Origin: Sneathiella glossodoripedis JCM 23214 | GTDB taxonomy: Bacteria; Pseudomonadota; Alphaproteobacteria; Sneathiellales; Sneathiellaceae | Assembly: GCF_000616095.1 (NCBI RefSeq) | Contig: NZ_BAMS01000001.1 | Coordinates: forward strand, 124,001-188,000 | Length of the DNA stretch: 64,000 nt | Direction of reading: 5' to 3' | Shown here: piece after piece, positions 5,859 through 18,273 of the stretch | How the letters are laid out: each line of letters starts with the position of its first letter | How positions within the stretch are numbered: position 1 is the stretch's first letter | Made by a program: the position numbers and the translations under genes | Notes under the pieces: model-generated | The model's database searches: none | The model's input: the letters and a program-made list of their open reading frames with translations, nothing else | What the model was told of the DNA's origin: nothing

Positions 5859-6593
5859 ATGGTAAAAACTGTATTTTCATCTCGACCAGCATCGGAATCC
5901 ACCACCCCCAAACCCCTGTATGAGCAGGTTAAATCGTATGTTATGGACAATATTCTTTCTGGCAATTGGCAAATCCATAGCCAGATTCCGTCGGAGCATA
6001 CTTTGGTAAGAGAACTTCGGATGTCTCGTATGACCATTCATCGAGCATTGCGTGAACTGACCGCAAATGGTTTTCTGAATAGAATTCAAGGTGTTGGGAC
6101 CTTTGTTGCCAACCCCAAAGAGGAAAAAACCTCTCTAAAACTAGCTGACATTAAGGATATGATTATCGCTCGGGGAAACCGATATGCTAGTGAGGTTAAG
6201 TTCCTACAGAGTGAACCGATTGAACCCGACATGGCTCCTCTCCTACAACTTGACACAGGCAGTACCGTATTCAGGTCTTATATAATCCATTGTCAAAATG
6301 ACCTGCCAGTTATACTTGAAGACAGGTTCACGAGTCCGGCGCTTGCGCCTGAATTGTTAAATCAGGATTTTTCCAAGCAGACAACTGAACACTACTTTAG
6401 GGAACAGTACAATTTACTGACCCACCAACACCAAATCTCTGCACAGCCTTCGACACCAGAGCACCACCATTTCTTAAGACTTGAACAGCCCGTCGCATGT
6501 GTTCAAATCATTCGCAAAAGCTGGATCGGCACCCAATTACTCTCCTATGCCAAATACACGCTTGCCGCGAACAGATTCCAACTTCACTGTTAA
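5859..6593 (+). CDS. GntR-family transcriptional regulator, HutC subfamily
   Basis: A 244-residue repressor with the two domains of the HutC branch. The N-terminal winged helix spans about residues 18-85 (PLYEQVKSYVMDNILSG, then the recognition helix region RMSRMTIHRALRELTANGFL and the wing IQGVGTFVAN). A C-terminal UTRA effector domain spans about 100-240. Such proteins bind small ligands, often intermediates of amino acid or amine catabolism. No hut genes or other obvious target flank it, so the effector is unknown. The start has an AGGG site 8 bp upstream. Its C-terminus (NRFQLHC) is a little shorter than the usual GSRYRLVGRF ending. Confidence 0.85.
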   Translation: MVKTVFSSRPASESTTPKPLYEQVKSYVMDNILSGNWQIHSQIPSEHTLVRELRMSRMTIHRALRELTANGFLNRIQGVGTFVANPKEEKTSLKLADIKDMIIARGNRYASEVKFLQSEPIEPDMAPLLQLDTGSTVFRSYIIHCQNDLPVILEDRFTSPALAPELLNQDFSKQTTEHYFREQYNLLTHQHQISAQPSTPEHHHFLRLEQPVACVQIIRKSWIGTQLLSYAKYTLAANRFQLHC

Positions 6594-6726
6594 GACGCAA
6601 CTAAAACTTGAAACCATGCTTCAAAAGTTAACAAAAGGTTAATTTACGATAATTCCATCTATGCAAATTTAACTAATTGTGGTACGTTAAGAAACCTTTT
6701 ATATATATTGTACTAATATAATAGTT

Positions 6727-7383
6727 ATGAAAATTTTTTTAGCCGACGATCACCCACTATACAGAATGGCTTTGTCAGGATTACTGGCACAGCTGGATAA
6801 CGAAGTAGAAGTCGTAGACTGCTGCGATTACCGGGAGTTAGGTGACGCATTGTCGGCCGCTACAATCAGGCCAGACCTCATTTTGCTGGATCTTTCCATG
6901 CCGGGGATGGACTATGAAATAGCTATTCCTGAATTGAAAAGAAGCTACCCAGATGTATCTCTGATTGTTGTCTCAGGAACAGAAGACACATCTGACATGT
7001 CACAAGTTTTAAACCTTGGTGCTGAAGGCTTTATCCCCAAATCATCAACTCGTGAAGTACTCTTGAGTGCAATACGTCTTGTACTCTCTGGCGGGAAATA
7101 CATCCCGTCGCAAATATTTAGCAAAGACGAAAGCACTGAAACAAAGTCCGGTGCTTTGAGCTCAACGCAAATTTTAGGCAAGGGCGATGTATCTACAAGT
7201 GCACTTACAAAGCGTCAGAGGAATGTACTGGATTTAATGGCGGAAGGTCTTTCCAATAGAGAAATAGCAAATGCCTTGAACCTTGCTGAAAGCACAGTCA
7301 AGGTGCACATTACGGCCATTTTCAGAATCTTGGGTGTATCCAATAGAACTCAAGCTGTCCTTCTTCTAAAAGAATACGCTTAA
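6727..7383 (+). CDS. Orphan NarL/FixJ-type response regulator
   Basis: A 218-residue two-component response regulator. The receiver domain spans residues 1-120, with the acidic pair Asp7-Asp8, the phosphoacceptor Asp55 (LILLDLSMPG) and Lys105 (GFIPKSS). A linker is followed by a LuxR-type helix-turn-helix at about 160-216 (LTKRQRNVLDLMAEGLSNREIA, then AESTVKVHITAIFRIL). No histidine kinase gene is adjacent, so the partner must be encoded elsewhere. The upstream 130 bp is very AT-rich and may hold its promoter. It is convergent with the AAA ATPase gene. Confidence 0.88.
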   Translation: MKIFLADDHPLYRMALSGLLAQLDNEVEVVDCCDYRELGDALSAATIRPDLILLDLSMPGMDYEIAIPELKRSYPDVSLIVVSGTEDTSDMSQVLNLGAEGFIPKSSTREVLLSAIRLVLSGGKYIPSQIFSKDESTETKSGALSSTQILGKGDVSTSALTKRQRNVLDLMAEGLSNREIANALNLAESTVKVHITAIFRILGVSNRTQAVLLLKEYA

Positions 7384-7410
7384 GTGTGCTATTAGGCATC
7401 ATCAAATTCA

Positions 7411-8906
7411 TTATCCAATAGCAGCGACATTTTCACTCCGAGGCTTAAGTGATTTTGCGGATGTAGCGCCTGTACCCGCCGCGTCAGAAGTATAAAGATT
7501 CTTAAGCGCATCGATGACCAATTCAACAGTAAAATGGGGCGGCTCACCCGTATATTTACAAGCCGAAACCACCTGATCAACAATAAATTTCGGTTGGTAG
7601 CAGGCAAGTTCGAAACTGTTTTTAACTTGTAATTCCTCAATCACGATATCCAGAATCTCCCGCGTCATTTCAAGGCCACGCGCACCAGCAACTGCCTTGA
7701 AAATTTCAAAATACTGCTCCTTGTTCGGACCGATTGTCTCAAGCTTATAGGGAATGCGTCGCAAGAAAGCAGGATCCATCAAATCATCAGGCGATAAATT
7801 TGTGGAGAAAATGACGAGCTCATCAAAGGGGAGCTGGAAACTTTTACCGGTGTGCAACTTCAAAAAATCTATGCGGCTCTCTAACGGAACAATCCAGCGG
7901 TTCAACAGCTCTTCGGGACTGACTAGCTGACGCCCGAAATCGTCAATAATAAATGTACCGTTTGAAGCTTTTACATGCAGCGGAGCTTCATAATAACGCG
8001 CGTTAGAATTATAGCTCAAGTCAAGCATTTCAAGGGTGAGTTCACCACCTGTAATAACAACTGGACGCTCGCAAGGCACCCACCTTCCATCAAACTCTTC
8101 GCGCCGCAGACCAGCACGGACCAATTCAGAGTCATCTGGCAGTACCGGTTTATGAATAGCAGGGTCGAATACTTTGATAATTTGACCATCTACTTCAAAG
8201 CAGTAGGGGATATAAATGATATTTGCAAAAATGTCGGCGACCTTCTCGGCAACCGTAGTCTTCCCGTTTCCCGGAGGCCATACAGCAAAATGCTTTTCCC
8301 TGAATTTATGCCAGGCCCCAGTCGACGGACAAAGTCATCAGCAATGACAAGGTTTTCGAAACTACTGGCAATTTTGTCAGGTGACACACGCTCGTTAGTT
8401 ATTTTTTGTTGCGATATCCGCTCTTGATAACTCTCAAGCGAAACAGGCGCAGGGCCCACATACTGATTTTGTTGCAGTGATTCCAAAGCAAAGCGCCTGC
8501 CCGTTTCCGTCATCACATAACGATTTTCAGAAAAGCTTGTTTGATCAGCAGTTCCCAAGGCTTCCAGGTATTTTCGATCTGCAGCATCCTGTATCAGACG
8601 ATTGATTACAGGGATCGGCAATTTTATCGCAGCAGAAAATTGTGACGCTGTTTCAAGACTATTTGTATAGATTGCCTTAAATAGAATTTTAAGAAGGTTG
8701 GATGTCGGAATACCGGTATCTGCTATTGTTTTAGGCGCATGCGGAGCTTCATAGATGACTTTTTCCACATCATCCTGACTCACAATGCCCAATGCAACCA
8801 AATTATCCCCCAGCTTGCCTCCATACTCCTTCTGACGGGCAAGCGCGAGTTCAATATCATCCTTGGTCACCAGCCCGTGGGCCATCAACAGGTCGCCGAT
8901 TAACAT
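7411..8906 (-). CDS. AAA-type ATPase with GspE/PilB-like N-terminal domain (frameshifted)
   Basis: After one base is restored this is a protein of about 498 residues. Its first 55 residues (IGDLLMAHGLVTKDDIELALARQ, then YGGKLGDNLVALGIVSQDDV) resemble the small N-terminal domain seen in GspE/PilB-type ATPases. A winged-helix-like stretch follows (SASQFSAAIKLPIPVINRLIQDAADRKYLE), then an AAA ATPase core: GKSILLYG, Walker A PPGNGKTT after repair, a Walker B-like DDFG, and a sensor segment DELVIFSTNL. The frame breaks at about 8276, inside Walker A (GGCCCT read as GGCCT). I chose the ATG at 8906, with GGAG 9 bp upstream, over a GTG further out. Function is unknown; it is not in a secretion or pilus operon. 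Confidence 0.75.
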
Positions 8907-9094
8907 CCTTCTGGTCTCCAGCGGAAATTGGGTATGTTGCAACCCTGAATTTAAAACTAGCCTCAAAAGGTACGCCTGTTTCGTTAACACGTGGTTAGAA
9001 ACTGCAAAAATTTTGATCTTTCTCTACTTCACGAAAACCACAAATATATGCTAATTCTGATATATCAAGTTACGCATAAAGCTGGAATATCATC

Positions 9095-9621
9095 ATGGCA
9101 ACTTACAAAGCGCTCTTAACTGTCTTCTCACCTGATCGAGTTGGTCTGATTTCAGAAGTAACTGGTTTGCTTTTTGATCATGGTGTTAATATTGGGGACA
9201 CCAGCTTTTCCATTTTGGGAAAAGGCGGCGGTTTCAACAGTATTGTTGAGATACCTCAAGATTTATCCGAACAGGATTTAATCAATGCCCTTAAGTCTCT
9301 CGCATCATTGATCGACGCTGATATTGATCTGAAACGGTTCAGCCTTCCTGATCAAGAAGCACCTCCTAAATCAGTTACTCACCAGATTTGGTTTGAAGGA
9401 AGTGATCAGCCGGTTTGCTAGCCCGTATTTCAGAGGTATTTACGGATTTTGGTGGCAATATTATCAGCCTTAAATCTGAACAGCGCCATAATCAAGATGA
9501 GCGCCTGTATATTACTCAGATTGATGCCAACATTCCGCCGGAGCGTGCCTCCAACTGTCTCGCAACCCTTGCCAACACAGCCGCGGGGCTCGGCCAAAAA
9601 ATATCAGCGCAACAACTGTAG
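9095..9621 (+). CDS. Tandem ACT-domain protein, GcvR-like (frameshifted)
   Basis: A predicted protein of about 175 residues with two ACT domains. The first begins KALLTVFSPDRVGLISEVTG, the second ARISEVFTDFGGNIISLKSEQ. This arrangement is that of glycine-cleavage repressor GcvR and related regulatory proteins, which bind amino acids and act through protein contacts rather than DNA. The frame is broken at about 9412 between GSDQP and LLARISE; a third G (CCGGGT for CCGGT) restores DQPGLLARISE. No gcv genes are nearby, so a link to glycine cleavage is only a family-level suggestion. It is divergent from the AAA ATPase and convergent with the chemoreceptor. Confidence 0.78.
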
Positions 9622-9641
9622 CGGTACAATAGCACCGCTAC
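9618..9641. terminator. Bidirectional hairpin between convergent genes
   Basis: A perfect 8-bp stem, GTAGCGGT/ACCGCTAC with an 8-nt loop, includes the stop codon of the ACT gene and lies 13 bp before the end of the convergent chemoreceptor gene. It is followed by an AT-rich stretch rather than a clean T run. It probably stops transcripts from both sides. Confidence 0.6.
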
Positions 9642-9653
9642 ATAGTTTAATAA

Positions 9654-12449
9654 TTATGCGGAACGAACATTCCTGAGGAAGCTTGAAACCTCTTCACTCA
9701 ATTCCGCAGACCTCTGCGCAAGGTTTGACGACTGCTCCAGAATTTGGCCTGCGGCGGCGCCAGTTTCTTCCGCTGAACGAGTCACATTGGAAATATTAGC
9801 CGTTACTTCACTAGTTCCGGTAGATGCATCCCCAGCACCTCTAGAAATTTCCTCAGTTGACGCAGATTGTTCTTCAATAGCAGCAGCAATCGCTGCAGAA
9901 ATCTCATCCATCTGACTTATAGTGGATGAAATTCCCTGAATTGCGTCTACAGATTGCTGTGTGGCCCCCTGAATTCCACTAATTTGGCTACTGATTTCGT
10001 CTGTAGCCTTAGCGGTTTGATTGGCAAGATTTTTCACTTCAGCTGCCACAACCGCAAATCCTTTACCCGCATCTCCAGCGCGCGCTGCTTCGATCGTCGC
10101 GTTTAGCGCAAGCAGGTTTGTTTGCTCAGCGATATCAGTGATCAGCTCTACGACTTCGCCAATTTTCTGGGCAGAATCTACAAGAAACTTGATTTGCTGA
10201 TGGGTATCTTCCGCCTGACGTACAGCATCACCTGCAACTCTGGTCGAATGTGACACTTGCGAACTGATCTCGCGAATTGAACTTGACATCTCATCAGCCG
10301 CAGCGGCCACAGCACGCACGTTTTCAGAGGCCTGCTCCGCCGACCCCAACGCGCTAGATGTTTGAGAGTTGGTCTCTTCAACAACTTTCAACATTTGCTC
10401 AGATGACGAATGCATGTCTCTCGCTGCTGTATCCACGGCGCCTGCAATACTGCCGACAGTTTTTTCGAACTCATCAGCAAGACGCATCAGATTTGCGCGG
10501 TTCTCTTCTTCCTGACGTTTACGCTCCTCAGCCGCTTGAGCTTCACGCCTACTTTCTTCTTCAGCTCGTTCTGCAGCCCGTTTCTGCTGTTCTGCTTCTG
10601 CTTTTGCTGCTTCTTCACGTAGTCTTTCAGCTTCAGTTGCATTCTCTTTAAAGACACGCATAGCTTTAGCCATTTCCCCGATTTCATCTTTTGTATCAGC
10701 TGATGGAACATCCGCATCAAGCTTACCATTGGCAAGCTCGTTCATCGCTGTTGTCATTTTACGTATAGGATTAGCAATGCCATTTCCGATACCAAGGGCC
10801 AGGAACAGGCCAATTACCACAGCGCCCAGCACACAAAGCGCGATAATGATGTAGGTATTTAACACTGTAGACTGCGCTGCTTCGCTCTTTTCAGCCATAA
10901 CCTGCTGCTCTACGCCCGTAAACTCACCCATCACGCTCAGAAATTCGTTGAAATATTTTTGGCCGCGGGCTTCACCCACCAAATCAGCCATATCATCCAT
11001 AGTCTTCGCGTCGCCAATGCTGCGACGCAAATCAATCATGCCCGAAACCACATCTTTTTGCCACGCCGCAACAGTTGCAGCCGCTTCTTCAAGCTTTTTA
11101 GCCTGTCCAGCATCGTCTTCCTTTACACGAGCAACCAGATCTGAAACCGCTTTTTTGAAAACTTTTTCACCTTCGGTATATGGCACGAGAAAGCTGTCCT
11201 GACCTGACAGAAGATACCCGCGCATACCGGTTTCCATATCCGTTGCTGCGGACAAAATATTCAAAGCAGCAGCAATGATCTCATAGCTTTCACTCACTTT
11301 TTCTTCATTAACGATCATCACAGCGATACCTGCATCGACCTTCTGTTCGGCCGCCAGTGCATCTGCTTTTCTAAAATGTATCCGTTCAGTTTCCGCCTGG
11401 GATACGCTGCCAATCGCTTCTTTGAATGCTTTTAGTGGCTCGTCCCTTTTCTTGCTTCCAATAAAGCCGTTTAGTTGCAGCAGGTTACCGGTGCCATTAT
11501 CCAGCGCTTCTCTAAATCCAATTGCCGGTTTAATGGATTCCTCAACCCAAGTATAAAGATGCTCTTCAGCTTCCAGTATCTTTTCAACGTGCTTTTCGTC
11601 CTGCTCAACCTCCAGACCAAGCACTTCAACTTCGGCAAATACTAAATCCTCAGCGCTTTTGTAGTTTTCAAGAAATTTACGGTTTCCACCAATCAGATAC
11701 CCCCGCAATTCTGCTTGCATCTTTACAATCAAATTATCTACACGCGACACTGCTGTTAAAATATTTTGTGTGTATTCAACGGCAGATGCTGTTTCCTGAA
11801 CAACCTTGAACTGCTCACGCACAGCGTCTTTCGCACTGGCAAACTCAACCTGCCGTTCTTGCAAGCGAGTGCGTTCCGCAGCAATAAACTCATTGATTTG
11901 TTTGCGGAATTTCTCGAAAAATACTTTACCTTTCGCTTCTCCCACCAACTTCGCCATATCATTCATGGTTGGTGCATCACCAATTTGACGGCGCAATTCT
12001 ATTGATGGCTCCGTCACATTCTCTTGCCATTCACGAAGGATCTGCTCCGTTCTGTTCAAGCGCTCAAGCTGTTCAGGGTTAGACGTGCCAATTGAGTCCC
12101 GAAGCCCCTGAATAAGTTCGTAGGTTTCAACTTCACCTTTTTTATATGGTTCTAGAAAACTCTCCCGACCTGCTAGCAGATAGCCGCGCATACCGGTTTC
12201 CATATTCAAGGCAGACGTTTCAATTGCGGTGGCACGTTCTGTAATGTCTCTCGATTGGTTCAACGTTACGCTTGTTTCAACAAGGCCGTTCACATTAAAG
12301 CCAGCAACCAGCCCCAAAACCAACAGCAGTACCAGCGGCGAACAGATACCGATCAGGATTTTTGTCTTGGTTTTCAGATTGGCAAATTTTCTTTCGATAC
12401 CTTTTACAAAGGCAGGCTTCATAGATTTGAGCTTTTTTTCTGCTCCCAT
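9654..12449 (-). CDS. Methyl-accepting chemotaxis protein with three CHASE3-like modules
   Basis: A 931-residue inner-membrane chemoreceptor, larger than typical. Transmembrane helix 1 is at about residues 31-52. The periplasmic part (about 53-527) contains three copies of a CHASE3-like unit, each with the signature MxxxxRGYLxxG: [11 protein letters not shown] at 84-94, [11 protein letters not shown] at 245-255, [11 protein letters not shown] at 406-416. The first and third copies also share RRxIGDAxTMxDMAxLVGEA. Helix 2 is at about 529-555, HAMP about 557-610, a charged coiled coil 605-655, and the signalling domain 670-925 with the conserved tip near [28 protein letters not shown]. The start is supported by GGAAG 5 bp upstream. 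The ligand is unknown; no che genes are adjacent. Confidence 0.93.
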
Positions 12450-12773
12450 AACACTTCCACGTCCTTATGCTACCGCATCACATGCCACACACCAGCATGT
12501 GCCTGCTTTCCATAAACTGGTCATTATCCAAGGCTGAAAAGAGACCAGGCCCCAATTTGTGGTTAATTTTTATCGCAATTAATTAATATGACCTTAAACG
12601 CATAAAAATTTTACCTGATGTAACAGCTCCACAACATCAAACTACACGTAAGTTATTGTTTTATATATTTTATTTATTAACTTTGATTGGGTAGTGGTCG
12701 ATTGCTATTGTATATGCGCCAGAAAAAAATAAAAAAATGAAAGGCATCAGCATTCACCTGATGAAGCGGATAC
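12450..12773. other. AT-rich divergent intergenic region
   Basis: This gap separates the divergently transcribed chemoreceptor and enoyl-CoA hydratase genes. It is strongly AT-rich, especially 12560-12740, and must contain both promoters. I see no convincing gene, repeat or RNA structure in it. Confidence 0.5.
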
Positions 12774-13562
12774 ATGAACAAAACTGATTACAAAACACTC
12801 AGGCTTGAGATCCAGGATGGAATTGCTCAAATTATTCTCAGCAGACCACCCGCAAACCTGATCGACTATGATCTGACCCACGAATATCTTTCCGCATTGG
12901 ATGCCGCTGATAACGATCATTCCGTTCGCGTAATCATATTGCGCGGTGAAGGAAAAGGACTGTCAGGGGGGGTAGACATACGGTTTCTAGAAAAATTCGG
13001 TCCAACCGAAATGAAAGAGTTTCTCTCTCTTTTTTATATCAAAACAGTGGAACGGGTTCGCGCATTGAATAAACCAATCATTGCGGCTGTGCACGGTTAC
13101 GCCCGTGAGGGAGCCTGCACTCTGGCCTTTGCATGCGATATGATCATCGCATCTGATGACGCAGATTTTGGATACCCCGGCGTTCCAAACCTTGCATCGC
13201 CTCCGGGAATGCATGTCTGGTTCCTACAAAAGTTAATTGGGCGGATGAAAGCAGCAAAACTGATTCTGACTGGGGATCCTATCTCCGCCAATGAAGCAAA
13301 CACACTTGGCCTTGTTACAGATGTCGTACCGAAAGAGCGGCTGCTCCAGCACACCATTACACTTTCGAAACGAATAGCTGAACACTCACCCCATGCGTTA
13401 AAAATTACCAGAGAGCTGATGTATCGCGTGGAGGATATGAGCTTTAATCAGGTCCCGCCCACAGCTTTGGATGCGATGGCGGTTGCATTCGGATCAGAAG
13501 ACAGCATCGAAGCTCGCAAAGCCTTCAACGAAAAAAGAAAACCGGTCTGGAAAAATACGTAA
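12774..13562 (+). CDS. Enoyl-CoA hydratase/isomerase family protein
   Basis: A 262-residue crotonase-fold protein. The fold is shown by IIILSRPPANLIDY-type opening, the oxyanion-hole loop GEGKGLSGGVDI near residues 59-71, the second loop AAVHGYAREGACTLAFACD near 104-122, and the C-terminal pattern AKLILTGDPISANEANTLGLV. Enoyl-CoA hydratases usually carry a catalytic Glu after the second loop; here the segment ASDDADFGYPGVPNLASPP has no Glu at the typical site, so the reaction may be a different crotonase reaction (isomerase, hydrolase or decarboxylase). It stands alone, with no catabolic neighbours, so the substrate is unknown. Confidence 0.8.
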   Translation: MNKTDYKTLRLEIQDGIAQIILSRPPANLIDYDLTHEYLSALDAADNDHSVRVIILRGEGKGLSGGVDIRFLEKFGPTEMKEFLSLFYIKTVERVRALNKPIIAAVHGYAREGACTLAFACDMIIASDDADFGYPGVPNLASPPGMHVWFLQKLIGRMKAAKLILTGDPISANEANTLGLVTDVVPKERLLQHTITLSKRIAEHSPHALKITRELMYRVEDMSFNQVPPTALDAMAVAFGSEDSIEARKAFNEKRKPVWKNT

Positions 13563-13919
13563 TCCACCTAGATTAGCCTGAGCTTTGAAAGCTGAAAATG
13601 CGGTTTAAAAATGTGACGTATGTACACAAAACGCGGGAAGCCACATCTGTAACATGAAAGCTTGTGTTCACGGTCACACAACCAACCTTGTCCATTCAAA
13701 TCATGTGTATATTTATGGAGTTCTCTCTTTGCAGAGAACTTCGAAATTTAGTCAATCCTCTTTAGAAATTGATTGGACTGCATATAGATTTATCAAAAGC
13801 CACCCACCTTTGGATATGCCAAAATACATGGATCTTTTGTAAATTCTGTCACAGACGCCACATCAATTTATCACTAAAAAGTCGTTAAATTATTTTATTA
13901 CACTAATCAGGTGGTAATT
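13563..13919. other. Gene-poor stretch upstream of the RND pump
   Basis: About 355 bp without a supported gene. A 62-codon open frame at 13654-13842 has no ribosome site and no recognisable content, so I do not call it. The region holds a perfect inverted repeat at 13719-13740, listed separately, and becomes AT-rich just before the pump genes. Confidence 0.5.
13719..13740. promoter_or_regulatory. 22-bp inverted repeat upstream of the RND pump
   Basis: AGTTCTCT and AGAGAACT form perfect 8-bp arms around a 6-bp centre, about 180 bp before the pump start. Size and spacing suit an operator for a dimeric repressor, for example TetR- or MarR-type, although no such regulator gene adjoins the pump. 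It could instead be a weak terminator for the upstream hydratase; there is no T run after it. Confidence 0.35.
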
Positions 13920-15094
13920 ATGCTTTCCGCTAAAAACAAAATTCTGCTATCTGTTGGCGCGCTAGTCGCCGTAATTGGTGGTGTTTCGGGTGTACGTAGT
14001 TATTTTGTCCAACCTGCTTTAGCGGAGACAACCACACAACAAGCGGCAGTACCTTTACGTCAAGTTTCAGTCAGCATCGCAAAAGTCAGTGACGTTCAAA
14101 TCTGGAATGAATTCTCGGCCCGACTTGAGCCCGTAGATTATGTTGAAATCAAACCGCAGGTAGGCGGTACAATCACCGAAGTAAATGTAACCGACGGACA
14201 GCGGGTTAATAAAGGCGATGTACTTTTTGTAATTGACCCACGGCCCTTCATTGCACAAGTCAATCAGGCAACCGCTGAAGTGCAGGCTGCAAAAAGTACT
14301 GTTACCTACTCCGAAAAAGAAGTGGAGCGGGCCGCGGGACTGATTAAACGCAAAAATATCTCCGAGCGGGTCTTCGATGAGCGCGCAAACGCACTTGCTC
14401 GTGCAAAAGCAGAACTGGAACGGTCGAAAGCCCGCTTAATGCAGCTCAGATAAATCTGGATCACGCCTATGTTAAAGCACCGATCTCAGGGCGCATCAGC
14501 CGCGCTGAAATCACCCTTGGCAATACTGTCGCAGCGGGCCCCTCTGCTCCTGTACTGACTTCAATTGTCTCCGATGCCGGAGTCTATGCAGACTTTGCTG
14601 TTGACGAGAATACATACCTAAAATTCATCCGTCCCGCCGCCCGTGATGTGCAAGGCGAGCGCACAATTCCTGTCAAATTGGCTTTGCGAAACGGAAACCG
14701 TCAATTTTCCGGTTTTGTACACAGTTTTGATAATCGATTGGATGTCACCACAGGAACTATTCGCGCTCGCGCATTCTTTAAAAATGAAAACAATGATCTG
14801 GTTCCGGGCATGTATGGCACCGTCCAGCTTGGTAGCGCAGTCAATCAACAAAACATCCTCATCAACGAAAAAGCCATAGGTACAAATCAGGATCGGAAAT
14901 TTGTCTATGTGCTGAGTGAAACCAACACGGTTACCTATCGAGAAGTCAAGCTGGGTGCCCGAGTTGGCGATCAGCGTGTTATTCTCGAGGGATTAAAAAT
15001 TGGCGATGTCGTAATTAATGAAGGAACGATTACGCTTCGCCCTGGAATGCAAGTTTCTCCTCAAGTGACTGCGAAAGTGGCTTCGTCCTCCTGA
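13920..15094 (+). CDS. RND efflux periplasmic adaptor, AcrA/MexA type (frameshifted)
   Basis: Membrane-fusion subunit of a tripartite efflux pump, linking the inner-membrane RND pump to an outer-membrane channel. It has an N-terminal membrane segment (about residues 7-24), a lipoyl half-motif EIKPQVGGTITEVNVTDGQ, an alpha-helical hairpin (QVNQATAEVQAAKS onward), then KAPISGRISRAEIT, the beta-barrel and membrane-proximal domains. The frame breaks at about 14444; adding one G (CAGGCT for CAGCT) gives RLMQAQINLDHAYVKAPISG and a protein of about 391 residues, normal for the family. The ATG at 13920 has AGGTGG upstream and is preferred over the GTG nine bases earlier. It is followed after 32 bp by the pump gene. 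Confidence 0.87.
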
Positions 15095-15126
15095 CGCTTG
15101 ATTTTCTCTTTTGAAAGTATACTGAA

Positions 15127-18100
15127 ATGAATATCGCCGGATATTTTATAAATCGGCCAATCATGGCGTCTGTTCTGTCCATTCTTATTTTTCTCTCAGG
15201 CCTTATCGCCCTAACACGGCTTCCTGTATCTGAATATCCCGAAGTATCACCACCTTCTATTGTCGTGAATGCACGTTTTCCAGGTGCCAATCCAGCTGTA
15301 GTCGCAGAGACTGTTGCCACTCCCCTTGAGGAGCAAATCAATGGCGTGGAAAACATGCTCTATTTGAACTCACTTGCCAGTTCGGACGGCACCTTGCAAC
15401 TGCGTGTGACGTTTGCGATCGGAACAGACCCTGATTTGGCCCAACAACTTGTTCAAAACCGCGTCTCGCAAGCCCTTCCAAGACTTCCCGCCGTGACTCG
15501 TAATCTTGGGGTAACCGTCACAAAAAGCTCACCAGACCTGACAATGGTGGTTCATCTACGCTCACCTAACAACAGTTATGACATGCTGTATTTGCGAAAC
15601 TACGCCACGCTGAACGTCAAAGATGAGTTGGCGAAAATTCAAGGTGTAGGCGAGGTCGGCCTGTTTGGCTCGGGTGACTATGCGATGCGGATTTGGCTTA
15701 ACCCAAACCTTGCGGCGGAACGCAACCTGACCGCCAGAGAGATCGTTGAGGCCATTCGCCGGCAGAATGTACAAGTGGCCGCAGGTGTCGTTGGTGGCCC
15801 GCCATATGATACGGGTGTGCAGGTTCAAATGCCATTAAATGTTCAAGGGCGGCTTTCTAATCCGGAAGAATTTGCAAACATCATCGTCAAGCGCGATGAA
15901 AATGGCACCATCACTCGCCTTTCTGACATTGCCCGTATAGAGCTCGACGCACAGACATACTCTTTACGGTCTTTATTGAATAATCAGCAAGCAGTAGCCA
16001 TACCGATTTTCGCATCCCCCGGGGCCAATGCGCTGGATATATCCTCAAACGTTCGGCAGACAATGGCTGAATTAAAGGAAAACATGCCCGCGGACGTTGA
16101 CTACTCCATCGTCTATGATCCAACAGTATTTGTAAGCGATTCCATCAAAGCAGTGATCAAAACGCTCCTTGAAGCTGTGGCACTTGTCGTTTTGGTCGTG
16201 ATCATTTTCCTGCAAACATGGAGGGCTTCAATCATTCCGCTGCTGGCGGTGCCCGTGTCCATCGTTGGCACCTTTGCTTTTATGTATTTGTTCGGATTTT
16301 CTATCAATGTTCTGTCCCTATTCGGTTTAATTCTGGCAATCGGGATCGTTGTCGATGATGCAATCGTTGTTGTAGAAAATGTGGAACGAAACGTTGAAGA
16401 AGGCAAAACTCCGCGTGAAGCAACTATTCAAGCTATGAAAGAAGTAACCGGCCCGATCATTGCCACGTCTCTCGTCTTGGTTGGTGTCTTTGTCCCGATC
16501 GCTTTTGTAAGCGGCTTAACGGGACAGTTTTATTTGCAATTTGCCCTTACAATTGCAATCGCTACGGTCATTTCAACAATCAATTCCCTTACACTAAGTC
16601 CTGCCATGGCGGCAATTTTATTAAAACCGAAGCATGAGCAGAAAGACTGGTTAACCAGACTAGTAAACCTCATCATGGGACGTTTTTTCAGTCTGTTTAA
16701 CCGGGGATTTAATCGAAGCCAAAATGGTTACGCCGGATCTGTTAAAATATTCGCTAGCCGTAAATTTATGATGATGCTTGTGTTTGGCGGCTTGCTCGCA
16801 CTGACCGGCCATATATTTAACCTTGTCCCTAAGGGGTTCGTACCTGCACAGGACAAAGGTTACCTGATCAGTTTCGCCCAACTCCCCCCGGGAGCTACCC
16901 TTGAGCGTACTGAGAATGTTATTCGGAAAATGGCTAGCATCGCAGTCAAACAAGAAGGTGTTTCCGATGCAGTGCAATTTCCGGGACTATCGATCAATGG
17001 TTTCGTAGACAGCCCTGCTTCTGGCATTGTTTTTGTACCGCTGGATGATTTTAGTGAAAGAACTGAACCCCACTTGAACGGCTTTGCAATTGCCCAGCAA
17101 CTGCAACAGAAATATGCAGCAATTGACGAAGCCTTTATCGCCATTTTTCCAGCACCTCCCGTAAGTGGTCTTGGAAATACTGGTGGCTTTAAACTACAAA
17201 TTCAGGATCGCACAGATCAGGGATATGAGGCCCTTGCAACTGCTGTCCAGAAAGTCTTGCAAAAAGCTCAGTCATCGCCAGAGCTTATGAGCGTCTATTC
17301 CAATTATAATATCAGCTACCCACAACTATTTGCCAATATTGATCGAACGAAGGCCGAACAGCTGGGTGTATCTGTAGACGAAATCTTCACAGCTTTGCAA
17401 ACGTATCTGGGGTCGATGTATGTGAATGACTTCAATCGCTTTGGAAGAACCTATCAAGTGGTTGCGCAAGCAGATAAGGAATTTCGCGCTGAGCCATCCG
17501 ATATAGGAAATTTGCAGGTTCGCAATCTGAACGGTCAAATGATCCCGCTTGGGACCATGCTAAGTGTGGAAGAGACTTTTGGCCCTGAAATCGCGTCTCG
17601 ATACAATGCGTTCCGTGCCGCGGATATTAATGGCGACGCTGCGCCAGGTTACTCTTCGGTACAGGCACAGGAAGCGATTACAAAAATCCTGAAGGAAAAT
17701 CTCCCCCCCGGGATTGACTTCTCATGGACTGAACTCACCTATCAGCAGATTTTGGCAGGAAATACAGCAATCTATATTTTTCCGCTCTGTCTTCTGCTGG
17801 TATTCCTGGTTCTCGCAGCCCAATACGAAAGCCTGACATTACCGTTAGCAATTATATCAATTGTACCAATGGCCATTCTATCGGCGTTGCTGGGTATCTA
17901 TTTATCCGGGGGAGATAACAATATCTTTACTCAAATATCACTGTTTGTTTTAGCGGGACTAGCGTCAAAAAATGCAATTCTGATTGTTGAATTTGCCAAA
18001 GAGTTGGAAAAGAATGGCAAAACTATTGTTGCCGCTGCTGTTGAAGCTTCACGCTTGCGTCTGCGGCCAATCTTGATGACCTCGATTGCGTTCATCATGG

Positions 18101-18273
18101 GAGTTTTGCCTCTCGTTCTCAGTCAGGGAGCCGGTGCTGAAATGCGGCAGGCTATCGGTATTGCCGTTTTTTATGGAATGATCGGCGTCACATTCTTTGG
18201 CCTGATTTTCACGCCGGTTTTCTACGTACTTTTCCGAACTCTTGAAGCAAAACTGAGCACGAAAGCAGTTTAA
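15127..18273 (+). CDS. RND efflux pump, HAE1 (AcrB/MexB) family
   Basis: A 1048-residue proton-driven trimeric inner-membrane exporter of hydrophobic compounds. The N-terminus is typical (ISGYFINRPIMASVLS-like, first membrane helix 9-29), followed by two large periplasmic loops and twelve membrane helices in two halves. Helix 4 carries the conserved proton-relay acidic pair in LILAIGIVVDDAIVVVENVERN (about residues 401-422), and motif GLTGQFYLQFALTIA follows. The second half has the matching VLAGLASKNAILIVEFAKE. Full length and intact. No outer-membrane channel gene or local regulator accompanies the pair, so a shared TolC-like channel encoded elsewhere is likely. Confidence 0.93.
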   Translation: MNIAGYFINRPIMASVLSILIFLSGLIALTRLPVSEYPEVSPPSIVVNARFPGANPAVVAETVATPLEEQINGVENMLYLNSLASSDGTLQLRVTFAIGTDPDLAQQLVQNRVSQALPRLPAVTRNLGVTVTKSSPDLTMVVHLRSPNNSYDMLYLRNYATLNVKDELAKIQGVGEVGLFGSGDYAMRIWLNPNLAAERNLTAREIVEAIRRQNVQVAAGVVGGPPYDTGVQVQMPLNVQGRLSNPEEFANIIVKRDENGTITRLSDIARIELDAQTYSLRSLLNNQQAVAIPIFASPGANALDISSNVRQTMAELKENMPADVDYSIVYDPTVFVSDSIKAVIKTLLEAVALVVLVVIIFLQTWRASIIPLLAVPVSIVGTFAFMYLFGFSINVLSLFGLILAIGIVVDDAIVVVENVERNVEEGKTPREATIQAMKEVTGPIIATSLVLVGVFVPIAFVSGLTGQFYLQFALTIAIATVISTINSLTLSPAMAAILLKPKHEQKDWLTRLVNLIMGRFFSLFNRGFNRSQNGYAGSVKIFASRKFMMMLVFGGLLALTGHIFNLVPKGFVPAQDKGYLISFAQLPPGATLERTENVIRKMASIAVKQEGVSDAVQFPGLSINGFVDSPASGIVFVPLDDFSERTEPHLNGFAIAQQLQQKYAAIDEAFIAIFPAPPVSGLGNTGGFKLQIQDRTDQGYEALATAVQKVLQKAQSSPELMSVYSNYNISYPQLFANIDRTKAEQLGVSVDEIFTALQTYLGSMYVNDFNRFGRTYQVVAQADKEFRAEPSDIGNLQVRNLNGQMIPLGTMLSVEETFGPEIASRYNAFRAADINGDAAPGYSSVQAQEAITKILKENLPPGIDFSWTELTYQQILAGNTAIYIFPLCLLLVFLVLAAQYESLTLPLAIISIVPMAILSALLGIYLSGGDNNIFTQISLFVLAGLASKNAILIVEFAKELEKNGKTIVAAAVEASRLRLRPILMTSIAFIMGVLPLVLSQGAGAEMRQAIGIAVFYGMIGVTFFGLIFTPVFYVLFRTLEAKLSTKAV

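Follow-up and report, generated by a model that had tools for sequence, protein, structure and literature searches.

The window analysed here, a stretch of 64,000 nucleotides from Sneathiella glossodoripedis, contains on its minus strand an open reading frame of 931 amino acids (9654-12449) that starts with an ATG; the plus strand of the same segment, read in the same register, had stops throughout. Hydropathy maxima were found at residues 31-49 and 534-552, and these two strongly hydrophobic segments bracket an array of three CHASE3 units, designated U1, U2 and U3 (Table 1). Possession of two transmembrane helices, a HAMP domain and an MCPsignal domain gives the protein the makeup of a transmembrane methyl-accepting chemotaxis protein, and its MCP domain would control the CheA kinase. 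A preliminary description of the locus had placed the array between the two membrane helices of a chemoreceptor, and the hydropathy segments together with the HAMP and MCP matches agree with that placement.

Table 1. Features of the triple-CHASE3 chemoreceptor gene, in window coordinates
Feature	Residues	Position	Strand	Basis
Chemoreceptor gene, TM1 - CHASE3 x3 - TM2 - HAMP - MCP signalling domain	931 aa	9654..12449	minus	ORF + Pfam
Transmembrane helix 1	~31-51	12297..12359	minus	Hydropathy
CHASE3 unit 1 (U1)	63-200	11850..12263	minus	Pfam match, 112.1 bits
Cap block of U1, between helices 3 and 4, predicted swap joint		11925..11984	minus	Alignment + AlphaFold2
Predicted continuous junction helix B, 82 residues, U1 helix 4 into U2 helix 1	173-254	11688..11933	minus	AlphaFold2
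CHASE3 unit 2 (U2), predicted distal tip bundle closed on itself	221-356	11382..11789	minus	Pfam match, 50.3 bits; 3va9 match
Eroded cap block of U2		11442..11501	minus	Block conservation
Predicted continuous junction helix C, 83 residues, U2 helix 4 into U3 helix 1	333-415	11205..11453	minus	AlphaFold2
CHASE3 unit 3 (U3)	382-523	10881..11306	minus	Pfam match, 104.1 bits
Cap block of U3, predicted swap joint		10959..11018	minus	Alignment + AlphaFold2
Transmembrane helix 2	~534-552	10794..10850	minus	Hydropathy
HAMP domain	557-603	10641..10781	minus	PF00672
MCP signalling domain	735-895	9765..10247	minus	PF00015

At the seven same-genus loci L021-L027 and at L032-L034, genes for an ACT-domain protein and an AAA ATPase lie on one side of the receptor gene and an enoyl-CoA hydratase gene on the other; L032 and L033, the latter from a Sneathiella chinensis record, repeat L025 and L027, and the frame length and domain coordinates of L033 equal those of the same-genus locus L027. 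Among same-genus genomes without the receptor gene, the enoyl-CoA hydratase was found in 8 of 11 (62-64% identical) with no other gene of the locus within about 1.5 kb, and hence no clean absence at the locus was seen. Rfam gave no match at 6500-16000, and promoter and terminator scans yielded fewer sites than were obtained with shuffled sequences. Two nearby genes, named by eye in the second case, are broken. The AAA-type ATPase gene (7411-8990, minus strand) has a frameshift near what we take to be the Walker A motif, possibly a sequencing error or the mark of a pseudogene; in L032, L033 and L034 both halves of this gene lie, by their coordinates, in one reading frame. The membrane-fusion protein gene (13911-15094, plus strand), upstream of an RND efflux pump gene (15127-18273), has a frameshift near 14450. 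The closeness of the two broken genes hints at sequencing errors in the assembly.

All three units exceeded the curated cut-off of 28 bits for the Pfam CHASE3 family (PF05227), and they were the only CHASE3 matches in the whole genome at E <= 0.001. The motif RGYL occurs at residues 88, 249 and 410, an exact period of 161 residues, and ungapped self-comparison over offsets 20-329 gave positive scores only at 322 (+236) and 161 (+120), the next score being -41; the recurrence that had been described from this motif is thus borne out by the self-comparison and by the three family matches. Local alignments, each compared with 500 shuffles, gave 54 of 137 positions identical for U1 and U3 (39%, z 43), 34 of 152 for U1 and U2 (22%, z 17), and 29 of 139 for U2 and U3 (21%, z 11). 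Invariant columns in the 22-sequence alignment used for modeling numbered 33 in U1, 8 in U2, and 26 in U3. The preliminary description also noted a block, RRxIGDAxTMxDMAxLVGEA, shared by U1 and U3 and missing from U2. The sharing is confirmed, but the block is not missing: a stretch of equal length, eroded in sequence, stands at the same place in U2 and the period of 161 is unchanged. Deletion was therefore rejected and we conclude that the block, referred to below as the cap block, has eroded in U2.

A single chain of the receptor was modeled with AlphaFold2 from 22 sequences, and the best of five models was used (model number equals residue number minus 14). Mean pLDDT was 81.3 and pTM 0.51. 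Helices were predicted at model positions 13-79, 82-109, 111-142, 146-156, 159-240, 243-266, and 271-303 in the first part, and at 309-316, 319-401, 404-429, 433-464, 468-478, and 481-559 in the second. The junction helices at 159-240 and 319-401 were uninterrupted, with ten-residue pLDDT blocks mostly between 84 and 93 and one of 76 at the end of helix C, while the lowest values in the sensor were found where the chain is predicted to pass between bundles (blocks of 56 and 56 at 141-160, and of 59 and 50 at 461-480). The topology described below was read from helix boundaries and from the first and last aligned residues of structural matches, not from coordinates.

The CHASE3 structure 3va9 matched U2 alone (model 213-346; Z 16.3, rmsd 1.9, 127/127 residues), and this four-helix fold was present in the model in U2 by itself and in U1 and U3 only as hybrids. 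The NarQ structure that includes TM1, the sensor, TM2 and HAMP (5jgp) aligned over model 9-594 (Z 10.6, rmsd 2.6, 207/226 residues), a span that fits only if the fourth helix comes from U3; another NarQ entry, 5jeq, aligned differently, with an rmsd of 31.6. TorS (3i9w, residues 118-274) aligned over 150-462, that is, with U1 helix 4 plus U3 (Z 8.7, rmsd 2.2, 137 residues). By the tool's own statement, the Z values of 8.7-10.6 for TorS and NarQ lie in a range common for helical bundles. With moderate confidence we read the model as a periplasmic tower of three storeys, each a four-helix bundle, in which U1 and U3 would exchange their fourth helices and U2 would form the tip. A long stacked helical sensor had been anticipated in the preliminary description and the model predicts one; in the model, however, the stacked modules do not coincide with the units, since the two lower bundles are U1/U3 hybrids. 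With 42 residues of helix 1 above the membrane followed by the 82-residue helix, and an alpha-helical rise of 1.5 A per residue, the tower would stand about 186 A (about 19 nm) high.

In the arrangement that we favor, helices 1-3 of U1 would stand at the membrane as part of the lowest storey and the chain, instead of folding back, would climb, so that U1 helix 4 would form part of the second storey and continue straight as U2 helix 1. U2 would close on itself as the tip bundle. Its helix 4 would then descend straight into U3 helix 1, with helices 1-3 of U3 completing the second storey, and U3 helix 4 would drop into the first storey and continue as membrane helix 2. The conserved cap block would be the joint at which helices 3 and 4 separate.

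Each unit might instead fold as its own four-helix bundle, giving a string of three beads that lie next to one another or form a loose stack, and this we consider unlikely, although several observations speak for it. Every unit is a complete Pfam CHASE3 match, and a single CHASE3 folds alone (3va9). Furthermore, U1 and U3 are similar enough (39% identical) that AlphaFold2 may have exchanged them mistakenly, and it was least sure at the very joints where the exchange is predicted. The geometry is harder to reconcile with independent bundles. If U1 were closed on itself both its ends would lie at the membrane, and the straight 82-residue helix would then drive U2 into the membrane; the helix-swapped tower was the sole path found in the model that leaves the whole sensor in the periplasm. 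The NarQ and TorS matches also cover nonadjacent segments of the chain at 2.2-2.6 A, and the two-unit receptor described next behaves likewise. On the strength of the models, a string of independent beads is probably the wrong picture of the repeats. A covariation analysis of 29 triple sequences, comparing helix 4 in cis with helix 4 swapped, gave no clear signal even for the contacts expected inside a unit.

As a control we modeled a two-unit receptor, L054 from Desulfobacterales, whose linker between units is 14 residues long as in the triple receptors (AlphaFold2, single chain, 29 sequences). Mean pLDDT was 85.6, pTM 0.70, and pLDDT at the swap joints 72-79. Despite the 14-residue linker, the junction helix was broken at 198-202 (helices 162-197 and 203-243). 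3va9 aligned with 127/127 residues at 2.2 A over a span of model 56-348, and TorS 3i9w with 133 residues at 2.0 A over 158-303. In this model the proximal bundle is predicted to take its fourth helix from the last unit, with the linker as the tip of a hairpin. A side-by-side arrangement had been expected for two-unit receptors; this was overturned by the L054 model, in which the swap was seen again. The two-unit receptor would thus be the same tower minus its top storey, with the inter-unit loop as the tip.

These models also bear on a further alternative, that the helix exchange is real but occurs in the receptor dimer, one chain trading helices with its partner, and not within one chain. Chemoreceptors are dimers, the predictions were of monomers, and exchange sites of either kind would look alike in sequence. 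Nevertheless, one chain was enough to build all three bundles in the triple model, the two-unit control does the same, and we regard exchange between chains as very improbable.

If linkers are tips in two-unit receptors, but lie inside paired straight helices in triple receptors, their length should vary in the former and be fixed in the latter. The linker was 14 residues long in all 60 junctions of 30 triple proteins (in one of them, L053, the first unit is split over two frames), whereas the 44 measurable junctions of two-unit proteins showed 11 different lengths (-2, 9, 10, 11, 13, 14, 21, 24, 28, 35, and 43), nine doubles having been left out of this count where domain ends were not reached. 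An additional triple, L142, had linkers of 14 and 14, and additional doubles had linkers of 14, 24, and 25. Heptad spacing of the double linkers was considered and rejected, as the lengths do not fall cleanly in steps of seven. Proline was present in 1 of 58 triple junction windows compared with 13 of 53 double ones. Windows free of both glycine and proline made up 16 of 29 first triple junctions, 4 of 29 second triple junctions, and 10 of 53 double junctions, so that the second triple junction is not clean by this measure. Independent bundles leave the contrast between fixed and variable linkers unexplained.

A second prediction of the swapped tower is that the cap block, lying between helices 3 and 4, is needed only in units that send these two helices into different bundles. 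At least half identity to the block consensus was found in 163 of 174 units predicted to swap (51/57 and 52/57 units of doubles; 30/30 and 30/30 outer units of triples), in 2 of 30 middle units of triples, and in 6 of 50 measurable single CHASE3 domains, the consensus having been derived from the outer units themselves so that the counts favor them. Because of this bias, a fairer sign is that middle units keep the rest of their sequence better than the block: in the triples with MCP domains, conservation in the middle unit was 0.67 for the turn between helices 1 and 2, 0.40 for the rest, and 0.24 for the block. Mean block conservation over 29 triples was 0.86 in U1, 0.38 in U2, and 0.92 in U3. 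In single chemoreceptors the block (0.33) was no worse conserved than the rest (0.34). Among the six singles with the block, L091, L094 and L149 are cut by a contig start or frame break and may be pieces of multi-unit receptors, and L134 aligned only in part; the remaining two, L167 and L103, are genuine single-CHASE3 chemoreceptors and run contrary to the rule. Overall, the cap block tends to mark units whose helix 4 is predicted to cross between bundles, and its loss from U2 is left unexplained by independently folded units. Multi-unit receptors are mutually related and the counts are therefore not independent; repeat loci of an identical protein were dropped with a hand-made list, and near-copies stay in (L073/L126, L130/L131).

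The preliminary description stated that CHASE3 normally occurs once, and a survey of repeat number agreed: among 47 frames with CHASE3 above the cut-off in 144 alphaproteobacterial genomes, 38 were single, 6 triple and 1 double, and in the remaining 2 a single domain had been split by the search. Three of the six triples belong to this genus. A search of 337 alphaproteobacterial genomes with the sensor (E <= 1e-45) matched 9 genomes, with 8 triple and 2 double frames, the query itself favoring triples. In a survey of the phylum, the matches listed, counted by eye, held at least 15 frames with two or more CHASE3 domains (at least 13 doubles and at least 2 triples); doubles outnumbered triples among these matches, the reverse of the survey of the class. 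In named genomes we found 63 related loci. Triples occurred in records titled Alphaproteobacteria, Rhodospirillales, Rhizobiaceae, Roseibium, and Kordiimonadaceae, and also Desulfobacteraceae, Vibrio, Phycisphaerae, and Lentisphaeraceae. Many of these records, several outside Pseudomonadota among them, are metagenome assemblies, in which stray contigs are possible. A simple MCP motif pattern was found in 19 of 22 triple and 33 of 39 double frames of the 63 loci; the triples without it were L035, cut by a contig end, and L043 and L044, which end in histidine-kinase-like domains. Two membrane helices around the array were predicted in 15 of 17 multi-unit frames of L098-L137, and one in L099 and in the interrupted L125.

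Comparison of units among distant triples gave 60.1% identity for U1 with U1, 59.6% for U3 with U3, and 54.1% for U1 with U3; U2 was the outlier, at 44-45% to all units. The first unit of doubles was nearest to U1 (53.8%) and the last nearest to U3 (52.8%). In a tree of 209 units, which carried a long-branch warning and in which 35 of 204 inner branches were starred, most middle units grouped together (6 changes against a shuffled mean of 28), a measure of label clustering only that gives no order of duplication. Since units at equal positions correspond among distant triples, one private duplication was rejected; the outer units have their counterparts in the two units of doubles, and so U2 looks added. 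The simplest history looks like that of a double receptor that gained a middle unit inserted at its tip. Of the earlier proposal that the array arose by duplication with a diverged middle unit, the divergence of U2 stands, whereas a private duplication does not.

That the array is a recent, lineage-specific duplication acting as a spacer of little functional meaning seems hardly credible: U2 is strongly diverged in this genus (that of the window shows 20-23% identity to the units of 21 distant triples, whichever is compared, and is too diverged to place) and, of 23 same-genus genomes, not all of them complete, 7 have a near full-length relative (66-75% identical) and 2 others have pieces, but triples with the same linkers and positionally orthologous units are found in records titled Alphaproteobacteria, Desulfobacteraceae, Vibrio, Phycisphaerae, and Lentisphaeraceae.

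Among known structures, the closest analogue is 8f7n, the ligand-sensing domain of McpZ from Sinorhizobium meliloti with its 'helical tri-modular' fold; it headed the Foldseek matches to the whole sensor (E 3.5e-5), and no other was at or below 0.001. McpZ reportedly has three stacked four-helix bundles between two membrane helices and is said to have originated within Rhizobiales. The overall superposition was weak (TM-scores 0.16 and 0.24, rmsd 22.8), and 8f7n was absent both from the 50 structural matches listed (VIA) for the triple model and from the 24 PDB sequences that the 22-sequence profile listed at E <= 0.1 in the database copy searched. The McpZ chain is also shorter, at 364 residues compared with about 480 in the Sneathiella sensor. 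The Sneathiella-type sensor would build its storeys from three recognizable CHASE3 repeats and is found in records of several phyla.

The sensors of the HBM type, McpS (2yfa/2yfb) and TorS (3i9w), have two storeys compared with the three predicted here. Part of TorS superposed on storey 2 of the triple and on the distal storey of the two-unit CHASE3 receptor, whereas McpS aligned to both models only at a large rmsd (22-35 A). No HBM match was present among the seven Pfam families listed at E <= 1 for the 931-residue protein, which sets it apart from that family. McpS is described as two stacked bundles in PMC6381276, which also reports the CHASE3 structure 3va9 as the nearest structural neighbor of the sensor from McpN, a PilJ-type chemoreceptor. 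CHASE3 is counted among four-helix-bundle chemoreceptor sensors in PMC7390727. HK9 of Rhodopseudomonas palustris (3va9), with the same four-helix unit, ranked first among the PDB sequences matched by the profile (E 1.2e-14). Single CHASE3 sensors have one unit and no swap, and usually lack the IGDAxTMxDM block; NarQ, a general four-helix sensor with transmembrane helices and HAMP, likewise has one unit and no swap. The two-unit CHASE3 chemoreceptors (L054 from Desulfobacterales, L064 from Oceanospirillum, and L079 from Pseudophaeobacter) share the unit family and the cap blocks, but have a hairpin tip with a linker of variable length and no third bundle; the swap is predicted for L054. A tandem-CHASE3 receptor appeared in no title found in the open-licence literature on CHASE3, stacked sensors and McpZ or tri-modular folds. 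As judged from the models, the triple receptor would be a new variant of the stacked-bundle sensor.

By analogy with chemoreceptors in general, output of the triple receptor presumably runs from U3 helix 4 into membrane helix 2 and then by way of HAMP to the MCP domain. A ligand or partner would act on the tower, the variable tip and the conserved joint of the first and second storeys being the likeliest sites, and would shift U3 helix 4 and membrane helix 2, from which HAMP would relay the signal to the MCP domain that controls CheA. Conservation of the lower two storeys and variability of the tip would fit a common transmission shaft with a changing tip. The CHASE3 kinases RsfS, CfcA and KipF have been linked to ionic strength (PMC10950880), which makes salt a first guess for the ligand.

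The known stacked helical sensors, such as HBM and McpZ, are fixed folds. In the CHASE3 receptors the sequence still shows the repeats, which allows single, double and triple forms to be compared in number of units, length of linker and state of the cap block, and the comparison provides a testable rule for the evolution of sensor height. It suggests how bacteria may make taller sensors through copying of a part. A height of about 186 A would reach beyond the peptidoglycan. Tentatively, and with more doubt than confidence, we propose that each tandem CHASE3 copy enters at the tip and neighboring storeys share helices, so that the tower automatically becomes taller; that HBM- and McpZ-type folds are perhaps diverged products of such growth; and that the fast-diverging tip, past the peptidoglycan and near the outer membrane, may recognize a partner at that level and not a free ligand close to the inner membrane. 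The receptor is in any case predicted to be long enough to ask about chemotactic sensing at the peptidoglycan or outer membrane. The model also carries a warning that 'one repeat = one domain' can be wrong, which affects the choice of domain boundaries for ligand screening, as U1 or U3 alone would lack its true fourth helix.

Several related loci showed variations of their own. L043 and L044 carry triple CHASE3 arrays on histidine-kinase-like outputs with no MCP domain, as though the tower had been reused with another output, and in Shewanella two frames with kinase motifs and two CHASE3 units each, L071 (1715 residues) and L084 (1603 residues), look like hybrid sensors of very large size. L124, L130 and L131 are short frames (about 350 residues) in which two predicted membrane helices enclose two CHASE3-like units; a motif pattern scan recognized no output motif in them, and they are possibly stand-alone sensors. 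Finally, one alphaproteobacterial genome (G159) contains two different triple-CHASE3 chemoreceptors, L098 and L099.
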